From the NCBI GenBank assembly GCA_905235585.1, contig CAJOME010000005.1, positions 1 to 33,934 of the forward strand: a DNA stretch of 33,934 nt, read 5' to 3'. Position 1 is the stretch's first letter. The number at the start of each line of letters is the position of its first letter. The notes beneath the pieces are model-generated. The model saw only the letters and a program-made list of their open reading frames with translations, was not told where the DNA came from and searched no databases. Origin of the DNA: an uncultured Lachnospiraceae bacterium (GTDB taxonomy: Bacteria; Bacillota; Clostridia; Lachnospirales; Lachnospiraceae). This document shows, in pieces, positions 19 through 4,177 of this stretch. Made by a program: the position numbers and the translations under genes.

Positions 19-90
19 TCCTCGATAGCTCAATGGTAGAGCATTCGGCTGTTAACCGAAGGGTTGCTGGTTCGAGCCCAGCTCGGGGAG
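19..90 (+). tRNA. tRNA-Asn (GTT)
   Basis: Cloverleaf can be folded: acceptor TCCTCGA/TCGGGGA, anticodon loop CTGTTAA with GTT, T-arm GGTTCGAGCCC. Confidence 0.95.
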
Positions 91-130: not shown

Positions 131-202
131 GGCCCGGTGGTCAAGAGGTTAAGACATCGCCCTTTCACGGCGGTAACACGGGTTCAATTCCCGTCCGGGT
201 CA
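131..202 (+). tRNA. tRNA-Glu (TTC)
   Basis: Acceptor GGCCCGG/CCGGGTC, anticodon TTC, T-loop GGTTCAATTCCC. Confidence 0.95.
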
Positions 203-203
203 C
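178..203 (+). repeat. attL-like direct repeat (tRNA-Glu 3' end)
   Basis: Identical 26 bp to 1511-1536. Confidence 0.85.
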
Positions 204-209
204 GAAAGT

Positions 210-235
210 AAAAGCCTTGATTTTTCAAGGCTTTT
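210..235 (+). terminator. Rho-independent terminator after tRNA-Glu (lies inside the island, past attL)
   Basis: aaaagccttga-ttt-tcaaggcttttt hairpin followed by a T-rich tail. Confidence 0.8.
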
Positions 236-278
236 TATTATTTTATCCCCGAAAAACGGGCGTTTCTGCCGTTTCAAT

Positions 279-482
279 TTATCCCCACAGATAGAGGGTT
301 TCCTTTATGATCCATCTGCCCTCGGGGTTCTCAACCATATCAGAGTGAACATGAGATATCCCGTCCACTATATCCTCATAGGTTAAAGCGCATATCTCTC
401 TGCGCCGCAGACCGATCATGGCAAAGCCCATATACATTTTCATGTTCTTTCCGGAGACGCTACGGCATAGGCTATTTATAAG
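279..482 (-). pseudogene. Tyrosine recombinase/integrase catalytic-domain remnant
   Basis: Minus-strand translation ...SGKNMKMYMGFAMIGLRRREICALTYEDIVDGISHVHSDMVENPEGRWIIKETLYLWG* resembles the GLRR-E-ICAL box of phage/ICE integrases; in-frame stops on both sides and no C-terminal catalytic boxes. Confidence 0.7.
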
Positions 483-552
483 CTATCAACGGATAGGGGC
501 GGATATACCACACTATAGCCTCCGGCGGATGTGTAAAAATTGCGCGTAGCCA

Positions 553-581
553 TTGACGTATACACAATTATTGTGTATTAT
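553..581 (+). promoter_or_regulatory. hicAB promoter with palindromic operator candidate
   Basis: TTGACG-N17-TATTAT with ATACACAA-TTA-TTGTGTAT (560-578) filling the spacer and overlapping the -10. Confidence 0.6.
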
Positions 582-605
582 AATATATGCCAGGAGGCAA
601 TACAC

Positions 606-779
606 ATGAAGAAAAGGGACTTGATTAAAAAGCTTGAAAAAGCAGGCTTCAAACTTGACAGACACGGTAGCAACCATGATGTCTACAAGAGAGGAGCTGA
701 CGAGGAGCCGGTGCCGAGGCACAATGAAATAGACGAAAGCCTTGCAAAGCACATAATCAGAAAGTGGGGGCTTAAATAA
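606..779 (+). CDS. hicA: HicA-family mRNA interferase toxin
   Basis: MKKRDLIKKLEKAGFKLDRHGSNHDVYKRG... has the HicA dsRBD-like pattern with GSNHD/H; SD caggagg upstream. The supplied ORF start (540) lies in the promoter. Confidence 0.9.
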   Translation: MKKRDLIKKLEKAGFKLDRHGSNHDVYKRGADEEPVPRHNEIDESLAKHIIRKWGLK

Positions 780-808
780 CCACATCCCTTGAAGAAAAGG
801 AGGTATAT

Positions 809-1231
809 ATGAAGATAGCATATCCGGTAATTTTTACACAGACAAAAGACAAAAAAGACACATACCTCGTCTATATTCCGGACATGGACGGAGCTACAGA
901 GGGATACGGACTGGTAGATGCAATCCACATGGCGAGGGATTACATAGGCAGTATTCTTTTCAACAAGTCTGAAGATGAATACCCCGCTCCAAGCTCATTG
1001 GTATCTATAGATGCAGCTTCGGGAGAGTTCAGCAGCTCAGGCGAGTCTTTTGTGTCGGTGGTAGACATTGATATGGGAGCATACAAAAAGGAACTTGACA
1101 ATAGATCCGTGAGGCGAAATGTGAGCCTACCTAATTGGCTCAACCAGGAAGCAGATAAAGCCCATATCAATGTATCCAGAGTTCTACAGGAGGCTTTGAT
1201 CAGCAAGCTTGATGAACTTAAAATGGCATAA
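809..1231 (+). CDS. hicB: HicB-family antitoxin, RNase H-like N-terminal domain plus RHH-like C-terminus
   Basis: N-terminal YPVIFTQTKDKKDTYLVYIPDMDGATEGYGLVDAIHMARDYIG matches the HicB fold; C-terminal RRNVSLPNWLNQEADKAHINVSRVLQEAL looks ribbon-helix-helix; SD aaggagg. Confidence 0.9.
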   Translation: MKIAYPVIFTQTKDKKDTYLVYIPDMDGATEGYGLVDAIHMARDYIGSILFNKSEDEYPAPSSLVSIDAASGEFSSSGESFVSVVDIDMGAYKKELDNRSVRRNVSLPNWLNQEADKAHINVSRVLQEALISKLDELKMA

Positions 1232-1391
1232 AACCCGACAATAAATACGCCCTCATTAGTAAAAAAGTATAGGCGCGATTGAATTAAGATGATACACTTA
1301 CGATACGTTTGTCGCAAACCGTAAGATCTCGAAAGGTAGCAAATTGATCGTGAAAGACAGACAATCCCATCTCTATTCAAAAAGGAGGATG

Positions 1392-1420
1392 TTGACAAAA
1401 AAACATCCTCCGCATATAAT
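1392..1420 (+). promoter_or_regulatory. Perfect-consensus sigma-A promoter without an annotated downstream gene
   Basis: TTGACA (1392-1397), 17-bp spacer, TATAAT (1415-1420). Confidence 0.6.
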
Positions 1421-1425
1421 AACTG

Positions 1426-1510
1426 ACGCATGACACGAAAATGTGTCACATTTTTGGACAGGAAATGTGACACGACACCATGCAAAGCCTGATAAACGCA
1501 GGGCTTTTAT
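1426..1510 (+). ncRNA. Candidate small RNA inside the island
   Basis: Downstream of the perfect promoter; contains an 11-bp perfect stem (1443-1453/1463-1473) and ends in a hairpin aaagcctg...cagggcttt with TTTT (1484-1508). No expression evidence. Confidence 0.3.
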
Positions 1511-1536
1511 ACGGGTTCAATTCCCGTCCGGGTCAC
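1511..1536 (+). repeat. attR-like direct repeat (orphan tRNA-Glu 3' fragment)
   Basis: Identical 26 bp to 178-203, without an adjoining tRNA body. Confidence 0.85.
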
Positions 1537-1813: not shown

Positions 1814-1884
1814 GGCGACATAGCCAAGCGGTAAGGCAAGGGTCTGCAACACCCGTATCACCAGTTCGATTCTGGTTGTCGCCT
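1814..1884 (+). tRNA. tRNA-Cys (GCA)
   Basis: Acceptor GGCGACA/TGTCGCC, anticodon loop with GCA, T-arm CCAGTTCGATTCTGG. Confidence 0.95.
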
Positions 1885-1887
1885 CTG

Positions 1888-2052: not shown

Positions 2053-3108
2053 ATGTCTCAGAAAAAGATAAGTGTCATAATACCCTGCTACAACGTGAGC
2101 ATGTTTGTCGACAGATGCATGGAGTCTCTTGAAAAGCAGACCATAGGGATGGACAGTCTCGAGATCATACTGATCAATGACTGCTCCAAGGATGCCACAC
2201 TCGGCAAGCTGCTGCTGTGGGAGATGAAGTATCCCGAAAGTATAGTGGTGATACCGCTCGAAGAGAATATAATGCAGGGCGCTGCGAGAAACATAGCAAG
2301 AGAGTACTGCACCGCTGAGTATATAGCTTATCTGGACGCTGATGACTGGATCCTGCCCAATGCCTTCGAGAAGATATACAGGGTCGCCAGACAGAACAAT
2401 GCCGACATCGTAAACTATCTTTCAAAGAAAACCTATGTGGAGCCCGAAGAGGATGATCCCACTACCAAAAGCGGGAAGCCAGACAGATTTGTGGAGGTAA
2501 ATACTGCGCAGGAGAGGCTTGATTTCTTCATGGGAGACTGCCCGTTGCTAAGAGGCTGCTGGGACAAGCTTTTCCGCAGGGATTTCGTGGAGGAGCATGA
2601 TCTGAGATTTGCCGAGGGTGTATTTGATGAAGAGAGTCTGTTTACCACCCCGGCATATATGCACTTTAAGAGGATATATCTTTTGAATGAATACCTGCAC
2701 AGGTATTATCAGAATCCCATCAGCTCCACCTACAATCTGATGAGAGATATGAAGAGAAGGGACGATAATGCCAGGACCTGGCTCGCCACCTACAAGGTGA
2801 TGAAGGCAGACGGATCACTTGATGAGAACCATGAGCTGGCGGAGTGGTTCTTTATCATAAACTATTTCATCCGGTCTATTGTGTTTGCGACAGGTCGCGG
2901 CATACCGTATGACCTTGCCGCCGTACAGGAGATGCAGAGGAACGTTCTGGATTTCTTCCCGAACTTCAAGCAGAATAAATCGCTGGCTGCGAGAGAGCTC
3001 TACAGGGAGCCCCTAAAGCTTATAGATATCCCCATAGATGAATCAAACTTTGCGGAGTACAATGCCGCATGGGAAGAGATAGTAAAGACATATCCGAATG
3101 GGATTTGA
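2053..3108 (+). CDS. Glycosyltransferase family 2 protein
   Basis: KISVIIPCYNVSMFVDRCMESL...YIAYLDADDW GT-A fold motifs; SD aggaga; extended -10 TGGTATAAT upstream. Confidence 0.9.
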   Translation: MSQKKISVIIPCYNVSMFVDRCMESLEKQTIGMDSLEIILINDCSKDATLGKLLLWEMKYPESIVVIPLEENIMQGAARNIAREYCTAEYIAYLDADDWILPNAFEKIYRVARQNNADIVNYLSKKTYVEPEEDDPTTKSGKPDRFVEVNTAQERLDFFMGDCPLLRGCWDKLFRRDFVEEHDLRFAEGVFDEESLFTTPAYMHFKRIYLLNEYLHRYYQNPISSTYNLMRDMKRRDDNARTWLATYKVMKADGSLDENHELAEWFFIINYFIRSIVFATGRGIPYDLAAVQEMQRNVLDFFPNFKQNKSLAARELYREPLKLIDIPIDESNFAEYNAAWEEIVKTYPNGI

Positions 3109-3109
3109 T

Positions 3110-4177
3110 ATGAAAAAGATCAGCATCATCATCCCCGTATACAATACCGAGAAGTATATAAACCGGTGTGTGATGTCGCTCGTGCGTCAGAGCATAGGAG
3201 CCGACGCGCTGGAGATAATGCTCATTAACGATGCCTCCACAGACGAATCTCTTAAGTATCTTTATGCTTGGGAAAAGGAATTTCCGGAAAGCATCTGTGT
3301 GATAGATCTTGAAGAAAACGTAAAACAGGGCAAGGCAAGAAACATCGCCCTGCAGTATACGACGGGGGAGTACATTGCCTATCTTGACTCAGACGACTGG
3401 CTTGTGCCGGATGCTCTGCGTATGCTGTATGATAAAGCGCAGGAGACCGGTGCGGAGATCGTGGCATATCTTTCAAAGGATGTGAGTATAGAAGAGCAGA
3501 AGAAAAAAGGCGATGCCATAATCCTTGAGAACGATACGGACAGCGGCATGGAGGATGAGTATCTCAGAATAAGGGATACGGTCGACTATATCAGGCTTTT
3601 CTTTGGAGGCATGTCACAGAGAGGCTGCTGGGACAAGCTTTACAGGCGCGATTTTGTATTGAAGCATGATCTTAAATATACCGAGGGCATCTTTGATGAA
3701 GAAAGTCTTTTCACTATCCCCGCGCTCATGCATGTGAAAAAATATTATCTGATGAACAGATACCTGCACAGGTATTCCGATAATCCCATGGGTACAGTCA
3801 GCAACCTCTCTCAGAAATACGAGCATCTGCATGATAATGAAGTCACATGGAGGCAGGTATATGATGTGCTGAAAAAGGACGGATTCCTTAAAAAAGAACC
3901 GGAGCTGACAGAAGCGCTCTTCGTTCACAACTACTTCAACCGTTCACTGATGAATGCCGATGCCGCAGGACTCCTGTATGACGCGGAGGGAATACGGGCA
4001 CTTCAGGACACCATACACAGGCTCTATCCGAAATACAGGTATAATCCCATCCTCATAAATATGAGGAGCTTCCCCTATATGGAAAAGCTCCTCGAAATGA
4101 ATGTGGATGAAGAAAGTGTAGATGCCTTTTACTCCATCCTCAGGGATTGGGAAAGCATAGTAGGAAACGAGGTCTGA
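3110..4177 (+). CDS. Glycosyltransferase family 2 protein (paralogue of the preceding gene)
   Basis: MKKISIIIPVYNTEKYINRCVMSLVRQS...YIAYLDSDDW; shared GCWDKL/RDFV and FDEESLFT blocks with 2053-3108. Confidence 0.9.
   Translation: MKKISIIIPVYNTEKYINRCVMSLVRQSIGADALEIMLINDASTDESLKYLYAWEKEFPESICVIDLEENVKQGKARNIALQYTTGEYIAYLDSDDWLVPDALRMLYDKAQETGAEIVAYLSKDVSIEEQKKKGDAIILENDTDSGMEDEYLRIRDTVDYIRLFFGGMSQRGCWDKLYRRDFVLKHDLKYTEGIFDEESLFTIPALMHVKKYYLMNRYLHRYSDNPMGTVSNLSQKYEHLHDNEVTWRQVYDVLKKDGFLKKEPELTEALFVHNYFNRSLMNADAAGLLYDAEGIRALQDTIHRLYPKYRYNPILINMRSFPYMEKLLEMNVDEESVDAFYSILRDWESIVGNEV

Follow-up and report, generated by a model that had tools for sequence, protein, structure and literature searches.

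A remnant at a Lachnospiraceae tRNA-Glu gene, probably a prophage reduced by deletion, that retains an intact hicAB operon

We conclude, with high confidence, that a segment of about 1.3 kb inserted in the tRNA-Glu gene of a rumen-type Lachnospiraceae bacterium is a prophage that has been reduced by deletion to attL, a scrap of integrase gene, hicAB and attR, and that is not self-mobile. The window, i.e., the whole stretch of 33,934 nucleotides that was analysed, comes from a single MAG (174 contigs, assembly 89% complete), and among the genomes searched this MAG is the only carrier of the island.

Layout of the insertion and its integrase remnant

The window starts at a contig end, with a likely rRNA operon just upstream, and its first gene is tRNA-Asn(gtt) (19..90, plus strand; ARAGORN), which is also the first gene of the split cluster. 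The target gene, tRNA-Glu(ttc), lies at 131..203 (end 202/203, plus strand; ARAGORN and the repeat), and its 3' 26 bp (178-203) are supplied by the element. These 26 bp, ACGGGTTCAATTCCCGTCCGGGTCAC, run from the T-arm to the discriminator base plus one C; they constitute the attL core (178..203, plus strand) and recur exactly at 1511..1536 (plus strand), where the original 3' end of tRNA-Glu, now displaced, forms the attR core and has no tRNA 5' half before it. The 26-mer has exactly two copies in the window, and a 22-mer inside it has two in the whole assembly, both at this locus and with no third; the longest stretch common to tRNA-Glu and shuffled sequence was at most 11 bases (200 shuffles). 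One core copy together with the interior gives a repeat unit of 1,333 bp, and the distal copy lies 278 bp from tRNA-Cys(gca) (1814..1885, plus strand; ARAGORN), the next gene of the cluster, which directly follows tRNA-Glu in the relatives with an empty site. Just inside the element, 3' of tRNA-Glu, an intrinsic terminator (210..235, plus strand; fold z -4.9) occupies the same position as the hairpins found beside intact integrases. The original prediction had described a perfect copy of the tRNA-Glu 3' end at the distal position, a bounded segment of ~1.33 kb and a tRNA-Glu terminator that was brought in by the element, and all three descriptions hold, coordinates included.

The remnant of an integrase gene that had been postulated within the segment is real, as judged by tblastn to an intact integrase and by alignment. 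It lies at 297..479 on the minus strand (frame about 279-479; open frame 279-443) and corresponds to residues ~163-222 of a 337-aa tyrosine integrase in a congener (G022), with 47.5% identity over 61 aa (E 1.7e-12, tblastn) and, in a second alignment, 50% over 52 aa (E 9.5e-13). It retains the motif of the first catalytic Arg, GLRRREI, but residues 1-162 and 223-337 are missing, which removes the N-terminal half for arm and core binding as well as the C-terminal portion that bears HxxR/Tyr; no Pfam or NCBIfam profile matched the remnant, which is too short. Intact or near-intact members of this integrase subfamily are convergent to the 3' end of tRNA-Ala (G022:C313, G063:C119) or of tmRNA (G013, G063:C23), and the remnant in the window is convergent to tRNA-Glu in the same manner. 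Between the subfamily integrases and the tRNA or tmRNA there is a hairpin and, in most of them, also 12-bp tandem arm repeats (L190, L194, L198, L202). The left side of the segment keeps the tRNA and the hairpin (210-235); the 12-bp tandem repeats are absent there, so that the deletion probably took the C-terminus of the integrase together with the arm on that side. In G022 itself two integrases of one subfamily, 60% identical, have a common tRNA-Ala core (L062 1-340 on C333 and L190 on C313), which suggests that elements compete or lie in tandem at one tRNA.

At the opposite side, the stretch 1429-1508 is best read as the surviving attP arm, since its repeats and its hairpin match those of integrase relatives. 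Integrase arm-type repeats (GTGTCACATTT, an inverted pair; 1429..1473, unstranded) gave a 45-nt alignment to the arm repeats that flank the intact G022 integrase, and the 3' flank of the integrase is the only place in G022 where this motif forms clusters. The core-proximal hairpin of the arm (GCAAAGCCTGATAAACGCAGGGCTTTT; 1474..1508, plus strand) aligned with a hairpin beside the G032 integrase; for each of the two alignments, none of 500 shuffles was as good. A promoter-like site with a 12/12 sigma-70 consensus (1392..1420, plus strand) reads towards attR, and its -35 is overlapped by a 10-bp inverted repeat that is followed by a T-run on the minus strand (1384..1411). The right end had been described as a noncoding promoter/hairpin unit; the promoter-like site and the hairpins are present, but an attP arm is the better interpretation of the unit. 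Folding of 1392-1508 gave a z of -6.7, and no Rfam family matched this right-end RNA. As a separate observation, the promoter-like site, the overlapping inverted repeat and then the hairpins of 1392-1508 could yield a short RNA ending near attR.

The hicAB operon and the parent element

HicA and HicB domains stand together in one intact operon within the segment, where hicAB had been predicted. The gene hicA (606..779, plus strand) encodes a 57-aa, dsRBD-like HicA toxin with an HGSNHDVY motif (PF07927, E 1.8e-11; phrog_353, 7.5e-14), and hicB (809..1231, plus strand) encodes a 140-aa HicB antitoxin with a CcdA/RHH-type C-terminus (PF15919, E 1e-8; phrog_497, 1.4e-27). Modules of hicAB with HTH or RHH domains constitute classes 3/4 of Gerdes 2024 (PMC10865869). 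The operon is preceded by a promoter, TTGACG-17-TATTAT (553..581, plus strand), with the operator-like palindrome TATACACAATTATTGTGTATTATA; the same palindrome occupies the same promoter position upstream of homologous hicA genes, and it is a likely HicB operator. Compared with relatives, hicA showed pN of 0.17-0.23 and pS of 0.69-0.87, and hicB pN of 0.18-0.19 and pS of 0.88-0.91; the low nonsynonymous relative to synonymous difference indicates that hicAB has been under purifying selection, over a long divergence that is not informative on selection since this insertion.

The nearest HicB, with 72% identity, is encoded on a viral contig of a rumen phage (IMG/VR 2061766007_000246; L146), and the named hicAB homologues belong to Lachnospiraceae, many of them sampled from the gut of ruminants, the rumen included. 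Elements with a related integrase (G023:C117, G022:C333) carry endolysins, a phage-type Rep, a ParB-like protein and a helicase (PHROGs), and they have Rep, SleB-like, ParB and HAD genes in common with the viral contig that encodes the nearest HicB. The closest relatives of the remaining genes are thus on the phage side, part of the assignment for the integrase relatives resting on about 50% integrase identity, and a temperate phage, or a very similar integrative element, appears the likeliest parent. Among the sequences searched, no intact phage had both a related integrase and a related hicAB; the hicAB phage contigs, which may be fragments, gave no match to the integrase, and the integrase remnant as a query found no relative among viral sequences. 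An exact scan of IMG/VR with the core returned one contig only, on which the core belongs to a tRNA-Glu gene that the phage carries within a tRNA array. A search for full-length relatives with an intact integrase had also been proposed; intact integrases of the subfamily exist at tRNA-Ala and tmRNA, as described above, but no fuller version of the element was found at tRNA-Glu in 48 congeners.

In a CIME, attL and attR persist although the element has decayed, and an att-bounded remnant devoid of functional integration and transfer genes matches this definition (PMC5704250). If the term is taken strictly, the segment would descend from an ICE or IME and not from a phage; toxin-antitoxin (TA) modules are common cargo of both, and a hicAB homologue in G025 adjoins mobile-element replication-type genes. 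Such a descent is nevertheless unlikely in view of the endolysin, phage-type Rep, ParB and helicase genes in the elements with related integrases and of the viral contig that encodes the nearest HicB. The island contains no conjugation gene. The origin from an ICE or IME being unproven, prophage remnant is the safer label for a segment that works like a CIME.

Mobility and integrity of the locus

With the integrase broken and one arm lost, autonomous excision of the remnant is very unlikely, to judge from what is left of both; mobilisation by a helper in trans is possible but unsupported. The original prediction had considered a satellite mobilised in trans. In a wider form of this proposal the segment is a mini-element mobilisable in cis or trans, in which the integrase of another phage excises and moves the 1.3-kb unit and hicAB acts as stabiliser. 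The identical cores and the preserved right arm with its arm-type repeats would suit this proposal, and accretion-mobile CIMEs of 1.2-13 kb have been described (PMC7563491). We consider it improbable because no further integrase of the remnant's subfamily was found in its own 89%-complete assembly, where the other Phage_integrase proteins (C39, C15, C31, C21, C4) all fall outside this subfamily, and because the arm repeats that intact relatives have on the integrase side are missing on the left along with most of the integrase. In addition, no second copy of the element occurred in 48 congeners, no right end was present in 392 genomes of the order, which returned only tRNA cores and short matches to right-end DNA (those checked, in G209, G153 and G284, had no integrase in the fetched flanks), and a useless integrase scrap has been retained, as decay predicts. 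A live minimal satellite, in which an att-att hicAB cassette with one arm cluster is moved in trans by phage integrases acting at tRNA-Glu, hicAB securing maintenance and 1392-1508 acting as a small RNA, is more doubtful again. Further broken or truncated tyrosine recombinase genes are present in the same genome (L183/L187 on C15 and L184 on C31), which suggests that they are further decayed elements.

Integration by a tyrosine recombinase into tRNA-Glu had been predicted together with the splitting of an Asn-Glu-Cys tRNA cluster, and both are supported, the former by the repeat, the convergent integrase remnant and empty sites in relatives, the latter by these empty sites, which were found in G017 and six other congeners. 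In G017, the closest relative with the locus, the syntenic gap between tRNA-Glu and tRNA-Cys is 168 bp, and the region downstream is 87% identical and ends with the same glycosyltransferase. The corresponding gaps are 195 bp in G023, 235 bp in G027, 199 bp in G024, 49 bp in G013, 158 bp in G030 and 23 bp in G012, and such short distances indicate that the insertion split the cluster. The empty-site check that had been suggested was thus positive in relatives, but the literal 'tttgaggaatctag' junction was not found there because the spacer is not conserved between species. The window's own empty site would read tRNA-Glu joined straight to TTTGAGGAATCTAG, and the circle would have 1510 joined to 178.

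Two further congeners, G025 (820 bp) and G035 (8.6 kb), have ordinary genes between tRNA-Glu and tRNA-Cys; we rejected these insertions as sister islands, given the ordinary genes inside and no further exact core 22-mer in the genome. The one in G035 includes a gene (L036, 5324-8008) whose 894-aa product fuses a MatE transporter with HATPase and HD-CE domains; this gene adjoins a pair of histidine-kinase and response-regulator-like genes. In the window, the spacer between tRNA-Glu and tRNA-Cys contains repeated 'CTCGCAGAATGGCGAT...CGCAGTGCATGCGATCTCGAAA' units (1598-1646 and 1656-1704, also 1555-1590 and 1709-1744), and several congeners (L033, L034, L036, L037, L038) have this spacer filled with related units. 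A match to Clostridiales-1 RNA at 1685-1806 on the minus strand was sub-threshold (29.9 bits, E 4e-4). Two glycosyltransferase genes beyond tRNA-Cys (2053-3108 and 3098-4177) are in tandem and overlap, with segments that are 74% identical, and look like a duplication.

Since the source is a single fragmented MAG and its contig begins just upstream at a likely rRNA operon, an assembly artefact joining tRNA-Glu-flanked sequences has to be weighed; it is highly improbable, as the usual assembly words are longer than the 26-bp repeat, the orthologous flank is contiguous with the island on the right, and an integrase scrap and a terminator are biologically plausible components. Finally, the distal 26 bp as what is left of another tRNA-Glu gene, now decayed, with hicAB merely lying between two tRNA genes, was an objection that the original prediction had raised against itself, and some congeners (G014, G031) do have two tRNA-Glu genes, though on separate contigs; we rejected it with near certainty, because the tRNA-Glu 5' part, when sought in the 47 bases before the distal copy, aligned no better than shuffles (p 0.52), which makes this copy an att site, and because identity is exactly 100% with a sharp end at the T-arm, the segment contains an integrase remnant and arm repeats, and all Asn-Glu-Cys relatives have one tRNA-Glu at the site.

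Proposed history and known counterparts

The broken integrase beside an intact hicAB supports the predicted collapse of an integrative element, and we propose the following history for the prophage remnant. The attP of a temperate phage, or of a similar element, would have recombined with the T-arm and 3' end of tRNA-Glu through a tyrosine integrase, whereby the DNA of the element presumably rebuilt the 3' end of the gene and brought a terminator, and the original 3' end would have been pushed to 1511-1536. Internal deletions may then have removed nearly everything, including most of the integrase gene and the arm sites on its side, leaving the attL core with the terminator, the integrase scrap, hicAB, and the other attP arm with the attR core; no genome with a fuller version of the same element at tRNA-Glu was found that would give a direct view of these steps. 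It is most likely that HicB acts through the promoter palindrome as a repressor of the operon and also neutralises HicA, whose RNase activity would strike cells that have lost the locus. Addiction, which the original prediction had put forward and which would fit, or a use of hicAB in phage defence, is the likely reason why only this stretch survived.

The locus is a clean case, very small in size, of two att sites and one TA pair outliving the rest of an integrated element. Given that the closest relative shows the empty site, it is suited to a direct test of whether hicAB keeps the final piece of a prophage from being lost.

The CIMEs of Streptococcus salivarius and of the S. agalactiae tRNA-Lys (PMC5704250, PMC7563491) likewise kept attL, attR and cargo, while their integrase and transfer functions were lost; the size of classical CIMEs is 1.2-13 kb, and that of microCIMEs, which are devoid of genes, is 130-220 bp (PMC7563491). 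In contrast to these elements, which are defined as derived from ICEs or IMEs, the remnant described here looks phage-derived, stands alone and not in tandem, and carries only hicAB. It has in common with cryptic prophages at tRNA genes the att flanks, a tRNA 3' end restored by the element, an integrase pseudogene and phage-type relatives, but only about 1.3 kb of it remains, devoid of structural genes. A TA pair on an att-flanked island is also known from SXT mosAT (PMC2654960) and the HipAB island (PMC8978831); those islands are large and excise, and their stabilisation was shown, whereas that of the present remnant is only presumed. Phage-borne hicAB modules with an RHH-type HicB (PHROG 353/497) have the same toxin-first operon, HicA dsRBD domain and RHH-like HicB C-terminus, and the module in the window, with a nearest HicB that is also viral, shows no notable difference from them. 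Decayed elements at tRNA sites and TA cargo are well-known phenomena, of which this remnant is an unusually small example produced by ordinary decay.
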